From: an uncultured Paraglaciecola sp.
GTDB taxonomy: Bacteria > Pseudomonadota > Gammaproteobacteria > Enterobacterales > Alteromonadaceae
Direction of reading: 5' to 3'
DNA length: 11,141 nucleotides
Assembly: GCA_905479025.1 (NCBI GenBank)
Contig: CAJQKX010000334.1
Span: 1-11,141 of the forward strand
A program made the translations under genes and the position numbers. A model generated the notes under the pieces. That model did no database searches. It was not told where the DNA came from and was given only the letters and a program-made list of their open reading frames with translations. Every line of letters starts with the position of its first letter. Position 1 is the first letter of the stretch. This document shows positions 622-11,141 of this stretch, piece by piece.

Positions 622-1326
622 TTATGCGCCCAAAGAATATTGTTCATACTCGTCAACTAAGTCTTCAGCCATCCCTACTTTAATCACCTCACCTTGGTCT
701 AGCCATACCGCACGTTGACAAACGCGTTTGACCTGCTCCCCGGAATGCGACACAAAAACCACCGTTTGCTCAGAACTGATCCGCTCAGAAATAACAGCTT
801 CGGCTTTAATTCTAAAGCTTTTGTCACCTACACCCAATGTTTCATCAACTAGCAACACATCGGCACGCATTAACATAGAGACTGAAAATCCTAATCTTGC
901 TCGCATACCAGAGCTATAAGTTTTTACAGGCTCCTCAAAACTGTTGCCTAATTCAGAAAAATTTAAAATTTGTGGAAGGGCTTTATAAGCAGCGTCTTTA
1001 CTGTGCCCTAAAAGCATTGCCATAAGAATAGCGTTGTTGCGACCCGATAACTGACTATCAAAACCGGTCTGCAGTGACTGCAGACTGACATGTTTCACAT
1101 AACTTTTAATACTGCCCTCATCAGGTTTAAGAATTCCAGAAAGCAACTTTAACAAGGTAGATTTACCACAACCATTTCGACCAATCACACCTAATGTTTC
1201 GCCTCTGTATACTTCAAATGATACGTTATTTAGCGCGCGATGTTTTGAATATCGGAAAAAACCCTTGCGACTTTTAAACGTCACCCCAACATTTTCTAAT
1301 CTTATACAAGTCTCTTGAACAGGCAT
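622..1326 (-). CDS. wzt: ABC transporter ATP-binding protein for polysaccharide export (Wzt)
   Basis: This is the cytoplasmic ATPase of an ABC-2 polysaccharide exporter, which powers transport of undecaprenyl-linked glycan through Wzm. Residues (234 in all) show Walker A GRNGCGKST at 49-57, the Q-loop region around LQTGF at 85-89, an ABC signature YSSGM at 137-141 (the serine-rich variant usual in Wzt/KpsT), Walker B DVLLVDE at 156-162, and the switch histidine H194 in FVSHS. The length corresponds to the short Wzt/KpsT type without the C-terminal carbohydrate-binding domain. The frame is open upstream to a TTG at 1434, but those 36 residues are an out-of-frame reading of the wzm 3' end. The ATG at 1326 gives the family-like MPVQETCIRLENVGVTFKS and overlaps the ancestral wzm stop as TAATG, indicating translational coupling. 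Confidence 0.93.
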   Translation of the reverse strand: MPVQETCIRLENVGVTFKSRKGFFRYSKHRALNNVSFEVYRGETLGVIGRNGCGKSTLLKLLSGILKPDEGSIKSYVKHVSLQSLQTGFDSQLSGRNNAILMAMLLGHSKDAAYKALPQILNFSELGNSFEEPVKTYSSGMRARLGFSVSMLMRADVLLVDETLGVGDKSFRIKAEAVISERISSEQTVVFVSHSGEQVKRVCQRAVWLDQGEVIKVGMAEDLVDEYEQYSLGA

Positions 1327-1397
1327 TATTGAAGCACCAACCTTGGGTAATTGTGATCGAACTTTCTTATCAAAAAAATTGCAACAATTAGGGCCTA
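1326..1397 (-). other. Premature amber codon and untranslated remainder of wzm
   Basis: The plus-strand CTA at 1395-1397 is TAG on the coding strand. After it, 22 sense codons follow in the same frame: a hydrophobic run ALIVAIFLI, then the positively charged tail RKFDHNYPRLVLQ and TAA at 1326-1328. This is the expected end of a Wzm last helix plus cytoplasmic tail. The TAA shares its final A with the wzt ATG (TAATG), an arrangement typical of intact wzm-wzt pairs. A single base change from CAG (Gln) or TGG (Trp) would explain the stop. Confidence 0.8.
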
Positions 1398-2108
1398 ACC
1401 ACACCCAATAGCCAATATTGTGAGCTGATTCCAATTAGGCAGTAGTCCCTCCATGATGATATCTCGATACATATCAATTGCAGCAGCCAATGGGTTAAAA
1501 AAAAATAAAACTTTATGCTCTGGTATTAAAAACTGTGACGGATTATAAAAAATACCCGAAGCAAACATCATCAACATTGTAAATGTTTGCACAATAAAAC
1601 GTAAATCAGGTAAAAAAGGCACAAAACTAGCGAAAATAATCGCCAAAGAACTAATAAACAATAACTGCATTAATGCAACGGGAATTATTGCAAACCATGC
1701 CAGCGAGGGTTGATAGCCCATTGTCCACAATATTGATAGCATTAGCATAAATACAAAAAAAGTTTTCACTAGATCTTGCCCAATAACTACTAGTGGGAAA
1801 AATAGTTTTGGAATGTCAATTTGGTTCATCAACCCGGTTCCGGTCATTATAGAACTTGAAGCGTTGGTGACTGAGCGACTAAACCAAAGAAATGGGATCT
1901 TCCCGCAAATTAAAAAGGCAATAAAATTCTCAGACCGAGCATTCAGAAAGACACCAAAAATGACATAATAAATAGCAATAAATAATGCCGGTTCGAGAAG
2001 CCACCAGATGTAATTGAGCTGATGCTTTGACGCTTCTGACTTTAAGTTCATCTGGATTTTAACTTTTACGAGTTGCCAAAAACGCAAATTGTTTAATTTA
2101 TGTTGCAT
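1395..2108 (-). CDS. wzm: ABC-2 polysaccharide export permease (Wzm), C-terminally shortened by an amber codon
   Basis: This is an inner-membrane permease that forms the glycan channel with Wzt. The 237 residues show the ABC-2 layout: an amphipathic N-terminus (1-34), hydrophobic segments near 35-55, 63-78, 103-130, 136-164 and 171-188, and family-like stretches LNYIWWLLEP (31-40), TGTGLMNQIDIPKLFFP (89-105) and FYNPSQFLIP (187-196). The start ATG at 2108 is the only sensible one, because the upstream ATG at 2122 runs into TAG after four codons. The frame ends at TAG (1395-1397) inside what should be the last membrane helix (ILAIGCG-stop). Reading on gives ALIVAIFLIRKFDHNYPRLV and a stop at 1326, for a normal 260-residue length. 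The product is therefore probably truncated, or made by suppression. It is divergent from the glycosyltransferase gene and cotranscribed with wzt. Confidence 0.9.
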   Translation of the reverse strand: MQHKLNNLRFWQLVKVKIQMNLKSEASKHQLNYIWWLLEPALFIAIYYVIFGVFLNARSENFIAFLICGKIPFLWFSRSVTNASSSIMTGTGLMNQIDIPKLFFPLVVIGQDLVKTFFVFMLMLSILWTMGYQPSLAWFAIIPVALMQLLFISSLAIIFASFVPFLPDLRFIVQTFTMLMMFASGIFYNPSQFLIPEHKVLFFFNPLAAAIDMYRDIIMEGLLPNWNQLTILAIGCG

Positions 2109-2635: not shown

Positions 2636-2706
2636 TTTTTATTTTTATTTTTATTTTTATTTTTATTTTTATTTTTATTTTTATTTTTATTTTTATTTTT
2701 ATTTTT
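2636..2706. repeat. Hexanucleotide microsatellite (ATTTTT), eleven copies
   Basis: A TTTTT run (2636-2640) is followed by eleven perfect ATTTTT units (2641-2706), immediately before GGGG and 46 bases upstream of the preferred ATG (2753). The unit is a multiple of three. In the glycosyltransferase frame it reads alternating Phe-Leu and stays open back to a TGA at 2615-2617, but contains no start codon. It therefore most likely acts as a length-variable leader or spacer, for example altering the U-rich region near the ribosome entry site. It may also be selectively neutral. Confidence 0.97.
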
Positions 2707-2752
2707 GGGGTTTTTAAACCACATAAGTTATTTTTCAACCGGCAAAAAAACG

Positions 2753-4207
2753 ATGGCAATCAAAAATAAGTTTTTACATGTCTGGAACAGTTTCCGCTAT
2801 TGTTGTAGACGAAAAGTAATCAATAAATCAGGTTTGTTTAATATTCCCTGGTATTTAGAACAAAACCCGGATGTAAAAAAAAGCAATATATCTCCATTGT
2901 TACATTACATAATGCATGGCGAAAAAGAAGGGCGCAGACCTAGTTCTGTATTTGATACCTCTTTTTACCTCAAACGATATTATGATGTTAAAAAATATAG
3001 AATGGGTCCTTTGGCCCATTATATTATGTATGGAGAAAATGAAGGCCGTAAAGTATCTCCAAACATCATCATTAGCGGTCATCAACTATACCCAAATAAA
3101 GCTAAATTAGTATTTGTTTCACATGATGCATCTAGAACAGGGGCACCATTATTTTTAGTAAATCTTCTCCAAAATTTAAAAAAGGACTTCTCACTGCAAA
3201 TTATCCTTTTAGAAGGAGGACCCTTAATTGATGAATTTGAACAATGTGGCAAAGTATTACATCTGTACACCATATCGCAAGTAACACATCAAGCAACACT
3301 AGAATCATTTGTTACAGATGATTCTAGTGCGGTTTATTTCAATACCATTGTTTCGGCTGGAATCATTGATTTCTTTTCTTATTTGGACAGTCCTAAGTTT
3401 GCTTATATACACGAAATGGGCTGTAGTTTAGAGTTATATCGAGAATCACTTCAAAAGATACTAGATAGTCAAAGCCATATTATTTTAGCTTCAAAATATA
3501 CACATAGGTTAATGCTTGAAAAATATGGCGTCAATAAATCTAGAATGACTGTTTTACGCCCTTTTCTGAGTAAAAGAAGCAAACAACTCGATCTCACAAA
3601 TAAAGTCGCCTTAAGGGAAATATTGGGCTTAAGGAAAAATGCTTTTCTTGTCTTGGGAGCAGGTACGTTGTGTGAAAGAAAAAACCCAGAAGCCTTTATT
3701 AAACTAGCACAACAAGTTTGTTCTATTAATGATGATATTGATTTTATTTGGCTGGGGGAAGGTTTAGCAATGTCAAAACTTCAGAAGCTTGTAGCTAAAT
3801 ACGGACTGAGGGATAGAGTTCAATTCCTAGGATACAAACCTAATATTATGGAATATTTTTCAATAGGAGATATGTTCTTTCTCAGTTCCAAAGAAGACCC
3901 ATGCCCACAGGTGTGTTTAGAGGCTGCAAGTTTTAATTTGCCGATTTTTTCTTTTAAAAACACAGGTGACATTAGCGCTATTTTTGATGATGGTGCTGGT
4001 GTAAGTGCAGTTTTAGGTGACCTCGCTGTACTCAAGTCAGCCCTTATAAACTTATACTCAAATAAATCCCTACAACACGCTTGGGGGGAAGAAGCTAACC
4101 GACGTGTATTTGAAAAATTTAATAAAAGCACTTACCTAAAACGTTTTCATGAGATGAATGCAATGTATTTAAAAAATTCTAAATATTTAGAATTCAAACA
4201 ACTTTAA
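2753..4207 (+). CDS. GT-B (GT4-type) glycosyltransferase with two N-terminal repeats
   Basis: This cytoplasmic enzyme is predicted to transfer a sugar from a nucleotide donor during glycan assembly. Residues 29-64 and 67-103 form two copies of a repeat common at the N-terminus of polysaccharide-locus proteins (W/FYL..N/YDVK...PL.HYIM.GE.EGR). The GT-B part follows: SHDASRTGAP at 123-132, an acceptor-domain HEMG at 220-223, GAGTLCERKNP at 302-312 opening the donor domain, WLGEG at 333-337, and EDPCPQVCLEA at 381-391, a D/E-x7-E nucleotide-sugar motif. The ATG at 2753 gives 484 residues. An in-frame TTG at 2705 at the hexamer edge would give 500, but its extra residues are not family-like. Neither start has a clear Shine-Dalgarno, which is odd. 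The sugar specificity cannot be read from sequence. Confidence 0.9.
   Translation: MAIKNKFLHVWNSFRYCCRRKVINKSGLFNIPWYLEQNPDVKKSNISPLLHYIMHGEKEGRRPSSVFDTSFYLKRYYDVKKYRMGPLAHYIMYGENEGRKVSPNIIISGHQLYPNKAKLVFVSHDASRTGAPLFLVNLLQNLKKDFSLQIILLEGGPLIDEFEQCGKVLHLYTISQVTHQATLESFVTDDSSAVYFNTIVSAGIIDFFSYLDSPKFAYIHEMGCSLELYRESLQKILDSQSHIILASKYTHRLMLEKYGVNKSRMTVLRPFLSKRSKQLDLTNKVALREILGLRKNAFLVLGAGTLCERKNPEAFIKLAQQVCSINDDIDFIWLGEGLAMSKLQKLVAKYGLRDRVQFLGYKPNIMEYFSIGDMFFLSSKEDPCPQVCLEAASFNLPIFSFKNTGDISAIFDDGAGVSAVLGDLAVLKSALINLYSNKSLQHAWGEEANRRVFEKFNKSTYLKRFHEMNAMYLKNSKYLEFKQL
4175..4194. repeat. 20-bp perfect AT-rich palindrome at the glycosyltransferase 3' end
   Basis: AATTCTAAATATTTAGAATT is fully self-complementary and lies within the last codons of the glycosyltransferase, ending 13 bases before its last base. 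It could fold into a weak hairpin in mRNA or bind a dimeric protein. It is not followed by a clear T-run, so an intrinsic terminator is doubtful. Confidence 0.5.
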
Positions 4208-4279
4208 AAATTTAATTTTACACACAGAAAAAATATAAAATCTTGGCAGAAAGTTATTTGAAAGAGTATAAATAACATA

Positions 4280-4543
4280 TTGGAAGTCCCAAGGCTGGTA
4301 GCTCAGCCTTACAGTATTTCTGCAAAAAAATCGGGAACTAGTGGGGCAAAAAAGATTACACTGCCTACTCACAATCAAACCCTTAATGGGGTATTTTGGG
4401 GAAATGCAAATACATTTTGCCTTGCTTTTATTATTGAAACTAATTCAGACATAGCAGTAAAATTGAAACAAAAAGTTAGAAAATCTTTATACTCTTCTAA
4501 TAAAAATATCCTAGGAGCCGCCAACTATTTTGACCGTATTTGA
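4280..4543 (+). CDS. Doubtful small ORF, unrecognised (87 aa)
   Basis: The frame starts at TTG 4280 without a convincing ribosome site and ends at TGA. The product is basic and reads partly like ordinary protein: TLPTHNQTLNGVFWGNANTF, then AVKLKQKVRKSLYSSNKNIL. I recognise no family, signal peptide or membrane segment. It could be a remnant of a displaced gene, with the 5' end including the hairpin at 4291-4310, or a chance ORF. The in-frame sequence after the stop (CYRLNLKQRKTW...) does not extend it convincingly. Confidence 0.25.
   Translation: MEVPRLVAQPYSISAKKSGTSGAKKITLPTHNQTLNGVFWGNANTFCLAFIIETNSDIAVKLKQKVRKSLYSSNKNILGAANYFDRI
4291..4310. repeat. Short inverted repeat (hairpin)
   Basis: AAGGCTG (4291-4297) and CAGCCTT (4304-4310) are perfectly complementary, with a GTAGCT loop. 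It is one of the few GC-containing hairpins in this AT-rich gap, 84 bases after the glycosyltransferase stop. No T-run follows, so it is not a typical intrinsic terminator. Confidence 0.5.
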
Positions 4544-4703: not shown

Positions 4704-5573
4704 ATGATGGAAAAAACATTTATTTTGGGCGTAGGGTGTCAAAAGGGTGGGACAACTTGGCTATATAAACAACTAATAAAATGTAAATTTGTCGACATGG
4801 GTTTTACAAAGGAACATCACGTTTTAGATGTCAAGTATATGGGATGTAACGATCCTGTAGAAAAAACACTAAAAGATAGATCTAAATTGACACGAAAGTG
4901 GGGGATTATAAAATCACAGGAAGAAAAGAATTTAGATTTGCTTGTTAAGTTTCGTCAAGATATTGATTCGTATTATAATTTTTTCGACAAATTAATTTCT
5001 ACTAAACCAGAAGTGAATTTTGTTGGCGATATATCTCCATCATATGCGGGGCTTTCTGTTGACGCGTTAAAAGAGGTCAAAGAAGAACTTGCAAAAAGGG
5101 GGTATAACATTAAGGTTATCTTTTTGATGAGAGATCCTTTTGAGAGAATTTGTTCTGCAGTCAGGATGTCTAGAAGACCAAACCGAAGAAAAACCAAAGA
5201 ATTGATAACAAGTGAAGAAATCGATACCTTTGCATATTACAAAAGCGAACATTGCCGTCTGCGAACACAATATGAAAAAACAATGAGGAACTTAGATGCT
5301 GTTTTTGAGCCTGAACAAGTATTTTATAGCATTTATGAAAAATTATTCTCCAAACAAGAAAATCAGTGTCTAGAGAAATTTTTGAACATCCCTGATTTTA
5401 AACCCGATTTTAATAAAGTATTCAATAAGTCAAAAAAAACTGAAACAATAAGTGAACAGCTGAAGAGAGACATTGTTAATTACTACGCTGACACCTATTC
5501 CTATTGCGAAGAACGGTTTAACACGAAGGAAATGTGGTGTAACAATAAATTATATAAGGCAATGGTAAATTGA
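4704..5573 (+). CDS. PAPS-dependent carbohydrate sulfotransferase (289 aa)
   Basis: This is predicted to transfer sulfate from PAPS to a hydroxyl of a glycan. The 5'-phosphosulfate loop GVGCQKGGTTWLY spans residues 9-21. The 3'-phosphate site is VIFLMRDPFERICSAVRM, with R143 and S151 at the family's eight-residue spacing. Between them, FVGDISPSYAG (about 106-116) matches the conserved region before the second motif. The C-terminal ISEQLKRDIVNYYADTYSYCEERF is the usual closing helix with the acidic/aromatic pattern of bacterial sulfotransferases. Length fits a single soluble domain; there is no signal peptide or membrane anchor, so it should act in the cytoplasm before export. It overlaps the next gene by four bases (TTGA), which indicates translational coupling. 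The exact glycan position is unknown. Confidence 0.9.
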   Translation: MMEKTFILGVGCQKGGTTWLYKQLIKCKFVDMGFTKEHHVLDVKYMGCNDPVEKTLKDRSKLTRKWGIIKSQEEKNLDLLVKFRQDIDSYYNFFDKLISTKPEVNFVGDISPSYAGLSVDALKEVKEELAKRGYNIKVIFLMRDPFERICSAVRMSRRPNRRKTKELITSEEIDTFAYYKSEHCRLRTQYEKTMRNLDAVFEPEQVFYSIYEKLFSKQENQCLEKFLNIPDFKPDFNKVFNKSKKTETISEQLKRDIVNYYADTYSYCEERFNTKEMWCNNKLYKAMVN

Positions 5574-8500
5574 AGCGAATAATTATCCATATAGGCATTC
5601 ATAAGACAGGCTCTACCTCGATCCAACAATCTTTTAGTGACCACCATCATACATTAAAACAGTTGGGATATTATTTCCCGCTATTTAAAAACTCGTATAA
5701 ACAAAATACTGAATCCAATCATGGGAGTTTATTTACAAACCTTTACGATGTAAATCCCTTTAAGTGGAGTAATAACAGGCGAATCGGAATTGATACTGTT
5801 GAGAAGGTAAAAGTGTTACAAGCATCTTATCTTTCTCAACTAGCAGCAGTATTGAAAGAGGAAGTCCCAGCCATCATTTTTTCTGCAGAAAAGCTATCGA
5901 AATTTCCCCTTGAAGGTATAAATAAATTTAAAAAAGACATAGAAACATTAACAGAAGGAGCTGTTGAGTTTAAAATTATCTGTTGCCTACGTGAGCCCGT
6001 GTCCTATTGGCAAAGCTTATGCCAAGAGAATATAAAAACAGGTGTTATTTCCCTAGATGAAATCTGTAAGAATACACCTCAAAAGCCTAATCTATTTCAA
6101 GATGTACTGACTAAATACATCACGGCATTTGGTAAAGATGCTGTTGATGTTTATCGTTTTGAAGACATGCTTGTGTCAAAACAGGGGCCATTTAATTACT
6201 TCTTAGGTCGAATATCTGCTGATTTACAAGGAAAGTATGAAGAGAATTGGAGTAATCTTGGTTACTGTCATGAAGCGATTGAGCTCATCTCATATATGAA
6301 CGAAAAAGTCCCTACGATGATTAATAAAAAAGTTAATCCACATAGGAAAATGAATGAGCATAAAATCTTATCGCAATTACAAGGAGTGAAATTTTCCCTA
6401 AGTGAAGAAGTTCAGACAAAAATCATCTCTGAAAGTCAAAATGACAGGCGATGGTTAAAAGCAAATTATAATTTAGAATATCCTAACCCTGAAATCAAAC
6501 CGGTTCAAAAAGAAAAGCTTTGGCAAGAGTCTACCATCAACCAGTTGTATGGCCTGATGCCTAAATTTAATAACAGCATTTCATCCCTTATTATAAAGGC
6601 AATGGAGAATATTGCTATTTCTTATAAAAACACAGAGCCAAAAAAATATGCACTTTTAATAAGAAAACAACATCTATCACCTCTAATTATATGGACTTTT
6701 CGCAGGACAGGAGGAACAAATTTAGCACATACTTTATTTTCGTCTATGGACAATGCTAATGCACATTATGAACCTTTCAATAAAAATCGTATCTATGGGT
6801 ATGTCGTAAAAAATTGGAAGGAAAGTAAAAATAAAGAACAATTGAAAAACGCGCTTATAGATATTCTATCTCAAAAAGTCTGTATTAAGCATTGTTTAGA
6901 GAATGTCCCTGATGAAGTAAATGCCATTTTGTTAGAAATTAGCGTTCAGTATGGTTATAAGCATTTATTCTTATACAGAGAGCAGGCAGAAGGTCGATTA
7001 TTAAGTCTCAATTATGCAGAAAAAACAGGTGTCTGGTCGTCAGATTTTAAGAATAAATCCAATTTAGATAACTCGATATTTTCTCAAAAAATTGAAAGCA
7101 AAAGACTCATTCAACATGAATTGACATGCAGAAAACAAATGAAGTCTATCTATCAAAAATCTGTTTCTCTTAAGGCATTTCCCTTAACTGTTAGCTTCGA
7201 AAACTTATATAAACAACCCTATAAGCAGTCAAAAAAATTAGTGCAAGACTTATTTACATTGCTAGTGCCATCAATGACAGATATTCCTGAAGAATTTTTT
7301 GAAAAACTTCTTAAAAAGGGAGCTCAAGGCACGAAAACAGATTACACACGTTTCAATGGTTCTGAAGATTTCCTCAAACAAGTAAGAGCTTTAGACCAGT
7401 TACACCTTTGTCTAGTCCCCAACTATCAGTTAGATAAAACGAAAGAAATTAATGACTTTAAACACTTTGAGATCATCAATATTCTTCCAGGGATAGAAAG
7501 AAACAGCTTTCATTGTTCTGGCATTGCTGTTGACAAAAATGGTCAAAGTGTAGATTTATTATTGAAACAAGGAACAGGATCCATCCTTGTAGATACTTCC
7601 TTAGAAGGTGGTCATTTTTTATCTAATGCTTGGATCGCCAAAGGACGTAATGAACTGTGGATGAAAAATAACGGACACAACGATGTGTTATTAGCAGTCT
7701 TGACGTTTCAAAAAAATGAAATAGTACATGAAGTCAAAAAATCAAAAAATAACCAACTAAAGAGACTTTATTTTTTCTGGGAAACCAGATTAAAAGACCT
7801 AACTAAAAATATTTTGAAGCCAAAAACCCAACTGAAACAGGTGGCATTTACGCCACCATCTCCTTTCAAAAAAATCTCTGTTATAAATAATAAAATTGGC
7901 TATACACCTATTCCAAAAATAGCCAGTACGTCCATTAAACATGCTCTTTATAAATTAGAAAATAAAAAGGCTTTTTCAATAGAAGAGCACAATACACATA
8001 TACATAATTTTTTTAATGAAAAGAAAAAAGCAGAAAACAACCCTTTGCCTGACTTCAACTTTATAGTTATACGAGATCCGATTAAACGATTTTTGTCAGG
8101 GTACGCCAACCGGGTGATGATGCATAAGGAGCTTTCAAAAAACTTTATTCAAAATACATGCCCATCATTGGAGGGACAAATTCCTTTCTTCGATCCAAAA
8201 CTTAATCAATTTATCGAAAACTTACCTCTTTACTTAAAGGTGGATACTATTCAGCATCACTTTCAACCCATGTGTACGCTATTGAGCAAGACAGAAAGCC
8301 TTAAGCAGTTTGATAAGGTGTACCCTTTAGAAAATATATACTCTCTAGAGAAAGACTTGTCTAATATGACAGGTGAGAACGTGACACTCCCAAACATGCA
8401 AAATAGTGCTCCAGTGATCTCGATTGGAGCGTTAAGCAAACAATCTATAGAAGTATTGTTAGAGTACTACCGTGATGATTACGAAGTATTAAATGAATAT

Positions 8501-9874
8501 TATAGCGTCGACCAAGTTTGGAAAGAATGGAAAGCCATATGTTCGGCTAAAGGAATTTGTGTCATGAATAACAAAGTCGGCTATTTCCCTATCCCAAAAG
8601 TCGCTTGTACTTCTATCAAAAATGCCCTTTATGAATTGGAGTTTAAGAAAGGCTTTTCGGAAGAACAAGAAGGAATGCATATACATGATGCTTTTAACAA
8701 CAACCAAAATCTTGCGCTATGTGATTTTAACTTTATAGTCATCCGAGATCCAATTAAACGCTTTTTGTCAGCATACTCTAACCGTGTTCTTTTTCATGGA
8801 GAACTTTCAGAAAGTACTATTCAAGATATACACCCATCCTTAAAAGGAGAAATTCCATATTTTGACCCAACTATCACACAATTTATTGAGAATTTGCCCA
8901 TTTATTTAAAGGTATTACCTATTCAACATCATGTTCAACCTATTTCTGAGATATTTGATAAAGCAAGGAGTTTGGAACAATTTGATAAAATTTACCCTCT
9001 AGAAAGTCTGTCTGCTTTAGAAGATGACTTGTCTATCATGACGGGTAGTAATGTGCGTTTCAAGCATTCACAAACAGGTGGACCTAGAATTTCACTTGAT
9101 AACTTGAACCGGAAACAAATTGAAATATTGTTAGAATATTATCGAAAAGATTATGAGTTGTTGAATGAATATTATCCCGTTGAACAAATTTGGCAAGAAT
9201 GGGAGAGCAGTAATCCTGACATAACAGATAAAAATGGTTGTTATATTTATTCGAACAAGACGTCTGTCAAAACAGCGGAATTAGTTCTTAAATATCTTGT
9301 TGAAAATTTTACAATCAATTCCATCACTCATTTTGGCTGTCGTAAGACTGCTTGGCTAATAGCCTGTTCAGACCTTGGTATTTTACGTTGCTTAGGGTTA
9401 TATGAGCACGAAGACAAATTAGAAGGGGTAAAAATAGAGACCCTGGAACTTCGACCAATTAACTTGACTGAAAACCTCCATGAACATTTTGACTTAGTCA
9501 TAAGCCTGCAATTAGTAGAAAACTTAAATCCGGCGCATTCAGAACAATGCATTAAATCATTATGTCATAGTTCAAATATTATTCTTTTTGGATCTACATA
9601 TTTAACAGAAGCGACGAAACCTAATTGTCAGAAACATAGCTATTGGGCAACGTTGTTTGCTGTACACGGTTATGTTGTTTTTGATCTTTTCCGACCAATG
9701 CTTCATCGTCATGATGAAAAGGGGGAATCATGGTATAAAGACAACTTATTTTTATACGTAAAACAAGATAGTACTCAGTATCACACGTTAATAGAGCAAG
9801 GTTTTAACCCTATGGAAAATATTTCTTTTATGGATAGTCCTCATCCTTTGTCATTTACACAAATAAATTCTTAA
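5570..9874 (+). CDS. Giant multidomain protein: four sulfotransferase-type modules and a C-terminal methyltransferase-like domain
   Basis: The protein has 1434 residues with no signal peptide or membrane segment, and single-domain sulfotransferases are about 250-350. Module 1 (about 1-368): HIGIHKTGSTS at 6-16, LREPVSYWQS with R141/S149. Module 2 (about 370-620): WTFRRTGGTNL at 375-385, LFLYREQAEGRLLS with R470/S479, then an unassigned beta-rich stretch (about 632-713) and a basic linker. Module 3 (769-995): PIPKIASTSIKHAL at 780-793, FIVIRDPIKRFLSGY with R835/S843. Module 4 (996-1217): PIPKVACTSIKNAL at 1007-1020, FIVIRDPIKRFLSAY with R1059/S1067. Modules 3 and 4 are a tandem duplicate of the Sulfotransfer_2 type (PK-x-AxTS). 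Residues 1218-1434 resemble a class I methyltransferase with a damaged glycine motif. The TTG start is chosen because MKRIIIHIGIHKTGSTS is the standard sulfotransferase opening; it overlaps the previous stop. The likely role is multi-position sulfation of the exported glycan. Confidence 0.88.
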   Translation: MKRIIIHIGIHKTGSTSIQQSFSDHHHTLKQLGYYFPLFKNSYKQNTESNHGSLFTNLYDVNPFKWSNNRRIGIDTVEKVKVLQASYLSQLAAVLKEEVPAIIFSAEKLSKFPLEGINKFKKDIETLTEGAVEFKIICCLREPVSYWQSLCQENIKTGVISLDEICKNTPQKPNLFQDVLTKYITAFGKDAVDVYRFEDMLVSKQGPFNYFLGRISADLQGKYEENWSNLGYCHEAIELISYMNEKVPTMINKKVNPHRKMNEHKILSQLQGVKFSLSEEVQTKIISESQNDRRWLKANYNLEYPNPEIKPVQKEKLWQESTINQLYGLMPKFNNSISSLIIKAMENIAISYKNTEPKKYALLIRKQHLSPLIIWTFRRTGGTNLAHTLFSSMDNANAHYEPFNKNRIYGYVVKNWKESKNKEQLKNALIDILSQKVCIKHCLENVPDEVNAILLEISVQYGYKHLFLYREQAEGRLLSLNYAEKTGVWSSDFKNKSNLDNSIFSQKIESKRLIQHELTCRKQMKSIYQKSVSLKAFPLTVSFENLYKQPYKQSKKLVQDLFTLLVPSMTDIPEEFFEKLLKKGAQGTKTDYTRFNGSEDFLKQVRALDQLHLCLVPNYQLDKTKEINDFKHFEIINILPGIERNSFHCSGIAVDKNGQSVDLLLKQGTGSILVDTSLEGGHFLSNAWIAKGRNELWMKNNGHNDVLLAVLTFQKNEIVHEVKKSKNNQLKRLYFFWETRLKDLTKNILKPKTQLKQVAFTPPSPFKKISVINNKIGYTPIPKIASTSIKHALYKLENKKAFSIEEHNTHIHNFFNEKKKAENNPLPDFNFIVIRDPIKRFLSGYANRVMMHKELSKNFIQNTCPSLEGQIPFFDPKLNQFIENLPLYLKVDTIQHHFQPMCTLLSKTESLKQFDKVYPLENIYSLEKDLSNMTGENVTLPNMQNSAPVISIGALSKQSIEVLLEYYRDDYEVLNEYYSVDQVWKEWKAICSAKGICVMNNKVGYFPIPKVACTSIKNALYELEFKKGFSEEQEGMHIHDAFNNNQNLALCDFNFIVIRDPIKRFLSAYSNRVLFHGELSESTIQDIHPSLKGEIPYFDPTITQFIENLPIYLKVLPIQHHVQPISEIFDKARSLEQFDKIYPLESLSALEDDLSIMTGSNVRFKHSQTGGPRISLDNLNRKQIEILLEYYRKDYELLNEYYPVEQIWQEWESSNPDITDKNGCYIYSNKTSVKTAELVLKYLVENFTINSITHFGCRKTAWLIACSDLGILRCLGLYEHEDKLEGVKIETLELRPINLTENLHEHFDLVISLQLVENLNPAHSEQCIKSLCHSSNIILFGSTYLTEATKPNCQKHSYWATLFAVHGYVVFDLFRPMLHRHDEKGESWYKDNLFLYVKQDSTQYHTLIEQGFNPMENISFMDSPHPLSFTQINS
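7874..9220 (+). repeat. In-frame tandem duplication of a sulfotransferase module
   Basis: Codons 769-995 and 996-1217 are two copies of one module, alike in protein along nearly their whole length and clearly related in DNA (for example around 8054-8098 and 8726-8770). Both open with I.V.NNK.GY.PIPK, share FNFIVIRDPIKRFLS, QFIENLP.YLKV, IQHH.QP, and close with EYYR.DYE.LNEYY.V.Q.W.EW. The second copy lacks three residues before the 3'-phosphate motif. Well over half of the aligned residues agree by eye. Confidence 0.9.
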
Positions 9875-9894
9875 TAGCCTTAAAGCGAGCTGTG

Positions 9895-11034
9895 ATGAAA
9901 GTAAGTATTGTTATTCCAGTATATAATGTAGAAAAATACATATCTGCTTGTATTGATTCTGTTTTATCACAAACATACCAAGACATCGAAATTATAGTCA
10001 TAGATGATTGTTCTCCTGACAAGAGTATTTCAATCATAGAGGCCTATCAATCTAATAAAATTCATATTTATGCCCACAAGAAGAATAAAGGACTTTCAGC
10101 TTCTCGTAATACGGGCGTAACATATTGTACTGGAGACTACATATTGTTTTTGGACTCTGATGATACTTTGAATCCAAAAGCATTGGAGCATTGCCTCTGT
10201 ATTGTACAAGAGCATGGCTCTGAAGTCGTTTCATTCAACTCTCGTCACATTGATGAAGAGGGGAATACCTGGCCACTTTTGTGGCATAAAAAATTCAACT
10301 TTGTAGAATGTTTTAATATATCTATTGTCAATTACCCCAAACTCGTATGGGATGTAGCAGCATGGAATAAGCTCATTTCTCTAAAACTATATAGAGAAAG
10401 CAACTTGATTTTTGATGAAGAACAGCGATGGTTTGAAGACCATTTATTTTCACTACAATTGTATAATAAAGCAAGGAAAGTCAGCATAACTACTGAAGTG
10501 CTTCATTACTATTTGAAGCGAACAGATTCAAGCAATCAGTCCATAACACAACAAAAAACTTTTTTAACCTGCGACTATCGAATTCGAATGATCGAGTCCG
10601 TTTTGCCCTATTTAGAGTCATCAGATAATCAAAAATTGATCCCCTATTTCTTTGACTTAATCCTTAGTTTTTATCGCTTCCTTATAAAAGATGCCTTTGA
10701 TACGGCAGAGACACAAACTCAATTTTTTGAACTTGTGTCTCGCTTCAAAAAAATATTAGAGCGCGTCCCTCTAGAAACTATGACTTACCATAGATTATCT
10801 CAAGTAGATGTTGCATTGATCATAAAGCATATGAGTGCTGAAGATATTGATTTATTTTACAGAGATCAAATGGTACGGCCTAATATATTAGAAAAACTGT
10901 TTTCCTATGATTTTGAAGAAAAAGAATATTTTTTACCTCAATATCTCAAATGGAAAGACGAAAAACAACCTAATCTTAAAAAACTAAAAAGCGCCCCCTC
11001 TTTTAAGAAACACACTTTGTTGTGGTTGAATTAA
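9895..11034 (+). CDS. Family 2 (GT-A) glycosyltransferase
   Basis: This is predicted to transfer a sugar from a nucleotide donor in the cytoplasm as part of glycan assembly. The first ~100 residues are a standard GT2 donor domain: VSIVIPVYNVEKYI at 3-16, VIDDCSPD at 35-42, NKGLSASRNTG at 64-74 and the metal-binding DSDD at 87-90 in LFLDSDDTL. An acceptor-side EEQRWFEDH follows near 175-185. The last ~180 residues are mostly helical and unassigned. The ATG at 9895 is chosen because MKVSIVIPVYN is the family start; a GTG one codon earlier is possible. It begins 20 bases after the giant gene's stop, so it is likely cotranscribed. The stop abuts an insertion-sequence end, so its last few codons could be altered by insertion. 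Confidence 0.9.
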   Translation: MKVSIVIPVYNVEKYISACIDSVLSQTYQDIEIIVIDDCSPDKSISIIEAYQSNKIHIYAHKKNKGLSASRNTGVTYCTGDYILFLDSDDTLNPKALEHCLCIVQEHGSEVVSFNSRHIDEEGNTWPLLWHKKFNFVECFNISIVNYPKLVWDVAAWNKLISLKLYRESNLIFDEEQRWFEDHLFSLQLYNKARKVSITTEVLHYYLKRTDSSNQSITQQKTFLTCDYRIRMIESVLPYLESSDNQKLIPYFFDLILSFYRFLIKDAFDTAETQTQFFELVSRFKKILERVPLETMTYHRLSQVDVALIIKHMSAEDIDLFYRDQMVRPNILEKLFSYDFEEKEYFLPQYLKWKDEKQPNLKKLKSAPSFKKHTLLWLN

Positions 11035-11050
11035 CCGGACACTTCAATAA

Positions 11051-11064
11051 AGGATTATAATCCT
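11051..11064. promoter_or_regulatory. 14-bp palindrome upstream of the transposase
   Basis: AGGATTATAATCCT is perfectly self-complementary, contains TATAAT, and lies 16 bases before the transposase ATG. It may be the IS promoter -10 region and an operator-like site, but this is inference. Confidence 0.4.
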
Positions 11065-11080
11065 GTTAATTGAGGTGAAT

Positions 11081-11141
11081 ATGACTAAACGAACAAATAA
11101 ACATTATCCCGCAGAATTTAAACAAGAAGCGGTCGCTCTGG
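11081..11141 (+). CDS. IS3-family OrfA transposase, N-terminal 20 residues
   Basis: The start MTKRTNKHYPAEFKQEAVAL matches the opening of the helix-turn-helix OrfA protein of IS3-family elements, in which the (K/R)(R/K).Y..EFK.EAV.L motif is diagnostic. OrfA binds the IS ends and contributes to the OrfAB transposase made by frameshifting. GAGGTG (11072-11077) provides a Shine-Dalgarno three bases before the ATG. The rest is beyond the window. Confidence 0.85.
   Translation, partial: MTKRTNKHYPAEFKQEAVAL

Follow-up and report, generated by a model that had tools for sequence, protein, structure and literature searches.

Why should a single bacterial gene encode four sulfotransferases in one chain? 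The question is raised by an 11,141-nucleotide stretch of DNA from an uncultured Paraglaciecola sp. (contig CAJQKX010000334.1 of assembly GCA_905479025.1), here called the window, in which one open reading frame (ORF; 5570..9874, forward strand) encodes a 1434-residue fused protein in the order module 1, module 2, linker, module 3, module 4 and a degenerate methyltransferase domain. Our comparisons suggest that it is probably a cytoplasmic tailoring protein, dependent on 3′-phosphoadenosine-5′-phosphosulfate (PAPS), whose fused sulfotransferase modules would sulfate an ABC-exported surface polysaccharide at several positions.

The fused reading frame and its modules

The ORF begins with TTG and is open throughout, and a public protein, P0001, equals its product in length and in module order (the order as judged with our own profile hidden Markov models, HMMs) and is 99% identical to it, with nine substitutions; the single 1434-residue polypeptide proposed in an earlier, sequence-only reading of the window is thus borne out. 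P0001 is encoded on a separate contig of 13616 bases. It stands for 39 public sequences clustered at 90% identity, and the protein of the window may be among them. The four pairs of PAPS-site motifs listed in that reading lie where it had placed them, and each corresponds to a conserved column of its family. Its estimate of at least two or three sequence types can be set at three: module 1, the Stf0-like module 2, and two copies of a PF03567 domain. The failure to match any sulfotransferase fold, which it had named as a refutation, was not observed: modules 3 and 4 match PF03567 and the models of modules 1 and 2 are sulfotransferase-like, so that the agreement goes far beyond what chance would give.

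Modules 3 (residues 767-994; 7868..8551, forward strand) and 4 (residues 995-1217; 8552..9220, forward strand) are of the Sulfotransfer_2 type. The whole protein scores 97.4 bits against PF03567 (cut-off 22) in two stretches that coincide with these modules, the best at residues 1001-1199. In module 3 the loop PKIASTS (residues 782-788) supplies the PAPS-site residues K783, T787 and S788, which are paired with R835 and S843; in module 4 the loop PKVACTS (residues 1009-1015) supplies K1010, T1014 and S1015, paired with R1059 and S1067. Among 37 relatives of this type the arginine (R835/R1059) is present in 36 and the serine (S843/S1067) in all, and each module keeps all 37 of the columns conserved in at least 90% of these relatives. 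The two modules are 60% identical, group together in the tree with a support of 0.977, and are a lineage-specific duplication; their dN of 0.30 against a saturated dS (4.8, by NG86) suggests that both copies are constrained. A PDB sequence search with modules 3 and 4 gave no match, and the AF2 models cover, of all the domains, modules 1 and 2 (the latter with the linker). At the start of module 4, a Shine-Dalgarno-like AAGGA is followed after nine bases by an in-frame ATG at residue 999 (8550..8566, forward strand). A scan for in-frame starts found three (residues 82, 999 and 1415), of which only that at 999 lies at a sulfotransferase module boundary, and the equivalent codon of module 3 is isoleucine (ATA). 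The motif is a possible internal start, or possibly the scar of a once-separate gene.

Module 2 (residues 367-611; 6668..7402, forward strand) contains the loop RRTGGTN (residues 378-384), with the PAPS-site residues R379, G381, G382 and T383 paired with R470 and S479. R470 is found in all 56 relatives and S479 in 55, and the module keeps 44 of 45 family-conserved positions. Ten-residue means in its AF2 model range from 72 to 98 over model residues 1-250, while the linker part lies mostly below 50 on the predicted local distance difference test (pLDDT). All 50 VIA rows listed for the AlphaFold model are sulfotransferases, which places it in the PAPS-dependent superfamily fold. The top Foldseek match is Stf0 (1tex, E 5.5e-5); Stf0, a trehalose enzyme, ties in fold with tyrosylprotein and glycan sulfotransferases, and three of the seven rows at E < 0.001 are epsilon/zeta toxin kinases. 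In the family of module 2, four of 13 members match PF09037 (best 6.2e-7), and a PDB sequence search with the family profile found nothing below E 0.05. The linker or accessory region that follows (residues 612-766; 7403..7867, forward strand) has no Pfam match. Its residues 623-679 match a profile for the stretch found behind module 2 in other proteins, namely in 15 two-module fusions (P0008-P0015, P0017, P0019-P0022, P0026, P0031) together with L009 and L010, at 25.4 bits for the linker alone and 20.8 in the whole protein; on this sequence match, module 2 seems to bring its own accessory piece. Within the coding sequence just 5′ of module 3 lies an inverted repeat, GGTGGC-ATTTAC-GCCACC (7840-7857), which may be a junction relic. 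Stem-loops of this kind occur at roughly the rate seen in shuffled sequence (4 found, 3.9 expected).

Module 1 (residues 1-366; 5570..6667, forward strand) has the loop HKTGSTS (residues 11-17), with K12, T13 and T16 paired with R141 and S149, the last two invariant across the 15 rows of its alignment (A6; window and P0001 included). Sulfotransferases account for 48 of the 50 matches listed for its AlphaFold model, which has the superfamily fold. GTPases and kinases are among the Foldseek rows just over E 0.001; these, like the toxin kinases seen with module 2, are read as reflecting a shared P-loop-like core in the models. Across six members of the module 1 family (alignment A3), PF17784 matches three, PF13469 one and PF00685 one, all weakly. 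A PDB sequence search with the module 1 profile gave nothing below E 0.05, the best hit being the sulfotransferase 3rnl at 0.053, and a protein search with module 1 alone returned three proteins.

The C-terminal domain (residues 1218-1434; 9221..9871, forward strand) aligns over its full length with P0029, a fusion of module 2 with a methyltransferase, and with a free-standing protein of locus L005 annotated as a class I S-adenosylmethionine (SAM)-dependent methyltransferase; against Pfam it gives only a sub-threshold match to PF08242. The glycine-rich SAM motif of class I methyltransferases is D/E-x-G-x-G-x-G. At this point P0029 and L005 read DFGCGVGTW and DLGCGRGAW, but the protein of the window reads HFGCRKTAW, in which SAM motif I is lost, and the next motif, GLDG(N/D)W in those two proteins, is reduced to GLY. 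The tails of P0001 and P0002, a second relative described below, share these changes. The methyltransferase-like domain of the earlier reading therefore stands by descent, but with the SAM loop gone the tail, though conserved, is very likely no longer a SAM enzyme, and it could serve as an acceptor holder or a structural cap.

Some of the sulfotransferase modules might likewise be glycan-binding or structural, as the tail probably is. The degenerate SAM motif, the divergence of module 1, whose C-terminal part is poorly modelled, and an H400Y replacement in module 2 are what such partial catalysis would lead one to expect. Against it, all four modules keep the conserved PAPS-site residues, and modules 3 and 4 are under constraint; we consider it the less likely possibility.

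Rearrangement of the locus

Behind the fused gene lies a gene for a GT2 glycosyltransferase (9892..11034, forward strand), which is cut by the left end of an IS3-family insertion sequence (11016..11141, forward strand, start approximate) that reaches the end of the window. A blastn search matched the element to plasmid-borne transposases of the IS3 family, with a best identity of 78.9%, and it has an orfA-like ATG at 11081. P0002 is identical over its first 374 residues to this GT2 and, where the window gene breaks off at the element, runs on through a linker into a second copy of module 4 and the tail, which differs from that of the window at 6 of 441 residues (98% identity). Because the GT2 gene stands behind module 4 and the tail in the window, we infer that both copies reside in one genome. 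Seven of the nine differences between P0001 and the window's protein fall in residues 1077-1186, and at five of the nine (1158, 1160, 1177, 1184 and 1186) P0001 carries the residue of P0002, a pattern suggesting that the two copies have exchanged sequence, or that an assembler mixed them.

These repeats bear on whether the long ORF is real. A 98% identical second copy of module 4 and the tail could confuse an assembler at this point, and the five shared residues fit a mixture, so that separate genes might have been fused artificially. However, P0001 agrees in length and module order although it comes from a different contig, the frame is open from end to end, and a full-length protein search returned no close second copy of modules 1 to 3. 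As far as could be tested, the ORF is not an assembly join, and we consider an artefact very improbable.

Relatives of the fused protein

A search with residues 1-480 of P0004 yielded 72 proteins, P0004 and P0001 included; by design it admits proteins of about 528-1680 residues and excludes free-standing forms. Modules were called with our own profiles, whose E-values derive from small sets and are rough; the seed of the profile for modules 3 and 4 (m34; m1 and m2 denote the other two types) included segments of P0003 and P0004, and all seeds included segments of the window, so that these match by construction. At least two sulfotransferase modules of the three types occur in 36 of the 72, among them P0001 and the query. 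The order m34-m2 is found in 20, m1-m34 in seven, m2-m34 in six (four of which, P0042, P0046, P0055 and P0056, rest on partial m2 matches with E 5e-5 to 4e-9), and m2-m2 and m34-m1 in one each; P0001 is the sole m1-m2-m34-m34-tail protein, P0002 the sole m34-tail and P0029 the sole m2-tail. A single profile was matched by the remainder, m2 in 31 and m34 in three. In precomputed Pfam annotation the 31 m2-only proteins have GT2, FkbM, LicD, pyruvyltransferase or ABC ATPase partners, and in P0028, P0047 and P0070 the partner is another sulfotransferase (PF13469). A PF05050 domain (FkbM-type methyltransferase) accompanies m2 in 15 of the 72 (P0044, P0045, P0050, P0051, P0053, P0058-P0062, P0064, P0066-P0068 and P0071).

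Free-standing m2 genes are common in the loci from genome_contigs, where 13 of 18 m2 ORFs encode 245-288 residues. Four of these 18 loci also contain an m34-type module (L007, L008, L010 and L011; fused in L008), and up to five contain an m1-type module (L008, L013, L014, L019 and L023; the contigs L013 and L014 belong to the same metagenome-assembled genome), an upper bound because the m1 profile is not strict and picks up a different sulfotransferase as well (L013 10757-12040). In L028 an m1-type frame lies directly downstream of the m2 frame on the same strand. That modules which are neighbouring genes in other genomes are fused here points to one shared job. Very long glycosyltransferases (1322-2000 residues) with PF13704 and Galactosyl_T domains adjoin the m2 gene in L007 (6052-10020), L002 (1915-7863) and L003 (1835-7837), and P0027 fuses m2 with such an enzyme.

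No four-module protein other than P0001 was found among the 72 or among the four proteins of the full-length search, both searches requiring shared five-residue words and so able to miss remote cases; the form has been seen so far in the window's lineage only. Module 2 occurs in two of 369 genomes of the class of G001 (itself one; the other match is weak, 6.6e-9) and in four of 390 genomes of the order of G002 (itself one), and the m34 type in five of 369 genomes of the class of G002 (itself one). Loci drawn from these genome samples contain no frame with more than two modules, whole-protein scans of genome_contigs and viral_contigs confirmed no relative, and a whole-protein PDB sequence search had no match. 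Among plasmids, 21 records carry single modules at less than 60% identity, none covering 80% of the query. The earlier statement that no protein of this architecture had been described accordingly holds for the four-module form, but not for the practice of fusing such modules: besides P0001 there are 35 proteins with two modules of the same types, the second being partial and weak in four.

Might the fusion then be neutral? Ordinary sulfotransferases that work independently of one another could have become fused, without gain, when stop codons were lost in a recombining locus, with module 4 and the tail perhaps also made separately from residue 999. The AAGGA and ATG at the module 4 boundary, the differing orders in relatives (m34-m2 in 20, m1-m34 in seven, m2-m34 in six, m34-m1 in one), the copy of module 4 and the tail behind GT2 in P0002, and a locus disturbed by an IS3 element and a possible sulfotransferase remnant would all agree with this. 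On the other hand, the m34-m2 fusion is shared by 20 of the 72 proteins, the most distant being 31% identical to P0004, and is therefore old or has arisen repeatedly, and P0001 conserves the four-module form. On balance we think neutral joining rather unlikely.

Gene neighbourhood

The sequence-only reading had also pointed to a separate sulfotransferase encoded just upstream, and this was confirmed: a 289-residue single-domain protein (4704..5573, forward strand) matches PF13469 at E 1.2e-6 and 29.3 bits (cut-off 27). The TTG of the fused gene overlaps the stop codon of this gene, with 4 nt common to both genes (TTGA, 5570-5573), and translation of the pair is therefore probably coupled. Further upstream lie a GT4-type glycosyltransferase gene (2705..4207, forward strand; PF00534, 78 bits) and, on the reverse strand, genes for an ABC-2 exporter permease (1395..2108; PF01061, 35.6 bits) and for a polysaccharide exporter ATPase of the TagH/Wzt type (622..1434; PF00005), which scores highest in NCBIfam against ATPases for the export of teichoic acid and galactan, though below the cut-offs. 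No plasmid match was found for the exporter DNA. An incomplete rfbB-like gene, also on the reverse strand (1-276), shares 54% identity across 87 residues with a stretch of L001 annotated rfbB. Just 5′ of the GT4 gene are two perfect tandem repeats, GCATTAGG x 8.8 (2525-2594) and TTTTTA x 11.8 (2636-2706), tracts of a kind that can switch or tune expression. At about 4276-4338, a short open stretch, HIGSPKAGSSALQYFCKKIGN, resembles an m1-type PAPS loop (HMM E 1.4e-4, from a small set) and may be what is left of a further sulfotransferase gene.

This setting also bears on the acceptor, which might be a lipid, a small metabolite or a protein rather than an exported polysaccharide. For module 2, the trehalose enzyme Stf0 and tyrosylprotein sulfotransferases tie in fold with glycan sulfotransferases, which leaves room for such a substrate. 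But the gene is surrounded by glycosyltransferases, an rfbB-like gene and an ABC-2 exporter, and its fused relatives bear GT2, FkbM, LicD or pyruvyltransferase domains, making another acceptor improbable.

Discussion

The natural reading of these observations is multi-sulfation of a glycan. The multi-sulfating modifier of the earlier reading stands in so far as four real sulfotransferase modules share one frame beside glycosyltransferases and an exporter; its methyltransferase part, with a broken SAM motif, does not. We propose that three kinds of sulfotransferase (module 1; module 2 with its accessory tail; modules 3 and 4) were united by gene fusion and duplication, that the neighbouring glycosyltransferases would build a surface glycan, and that each module would bind its own PAPS and sulfate a particular hydroxyl of the repeat unit before the ABC-2 exporter secretes the product. 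Pathways that use an ABC exporter complete the glycan in the cytoplasm, which is the site of PAPS. Fusion would hold the sulfotransferases in fixed ratio and near one chain, together with the separate upstream enzyme; the two proteins would offer five sulfotransferase sites, or six with an uncut gene of the P0002 type.

Several observations weigh against this proposal. The order and partners of the fusions vary, which fits plain genetic tethering equally well. The module 1 model reaches E 0.001 in only two Foldseek rows with P-loop kinases close behind, and none of the Pfam sulfotransferase profiles (PF00685, PF13469 or PF17784) matches module 1 of the window at E 0.1 or better. Module 2 of the window lacks a PF09037 or any other Pfam sulfotransferase match up to E 0.1, and its position 400 is tyrosine where 53 of 56 relatives have histidine. 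Finally, no PAPS-synthesis gene was recognised among window ORFs of at least 100 residues. The alternatives discussed overlap in part with one another and with multi-sulfation by fused modules, and their likelihoods need not sum to one.

A bolder form of the multi-sulfation proposal is a sulfation assembly line, in which the repeat unit, whether still growing or complete, would pass four PAPS sites and receive a different sulfate at each in a set order while the dead methyltransferase domain holds the acceptor. By shuffling and duplicating fused modules, as when module 4 and the tail were placed behind the glycosyltransferase of the next gene, the locus would rewrite its sulfation code. This is a speculative extension that we would not yet favour.

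Fusions of this kind hint at which sulfotransferases share one glycan, and one gene with individually switchable modules could provide a readout of which sulfate each module writes. Through the families of modules 1 and 2, poorly matched by Pfam, genes that currently carry a hypothetical label could be named. According to a 2024 review of sulfotransferases acting on polysaccharides, Pfam seeds lean toward animal enzymes already known and might overlook those of bacteria (PMC11625862), and for Vibrio sp. KMM 8419, which has a sulfated capsule, the exact roles of the sulfotransferase genes were unknown (PMC11641403). Among the titles and abstract openings listed from the open-licence PMC literature, none describes a multi-sulfotransferase protein.

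The animal N-deacetylase/N-sulfotransferase (NDST) joins one sulfotransferase domain to a deacetylase, and there is no sign that its fusion shares an origin with the one described here. Modules 3 and 4 resemble bacterial carbohydrate sulfotransferases of the Sulfotransfer_2 family (PF03567) in their profile match and in all 37 conserved positions, but here two adjacent copies share a chain with two further kinds of sulfotransferase. Module 2 resembles Stf0 and the LpsS-type enzymes (PF09037), given its top Foldseek match to 1tex (Stf0 with trehalose) and the PF09037 matches of four of 13 relatives, but differs from them in lacking such a match itself and in having HEPFN and IKHC motifs and an accessory tail. 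The m34-m2 fusions, such as P0012 of Oceanimonas smirnovii, P0021 of Marinobacterium sedimentorum, P0026 of Oceanobacter mangrovi and, with an added GT2, P0004 of Ca. Sedimenticola, likewise hold two module types in one chain, at least some with a related tail after m2. In contrast to the window's protein, the 20 fusions of this kind have the opposite order and lack module 1, the second m34 and the methyltransferase-derived tail. The module types are thus known or nearly so, whereas the four-module chain has so far been seen in one lineage and takes to an extreme a tendency to fuse sulfotransferases that has drawn little notice.

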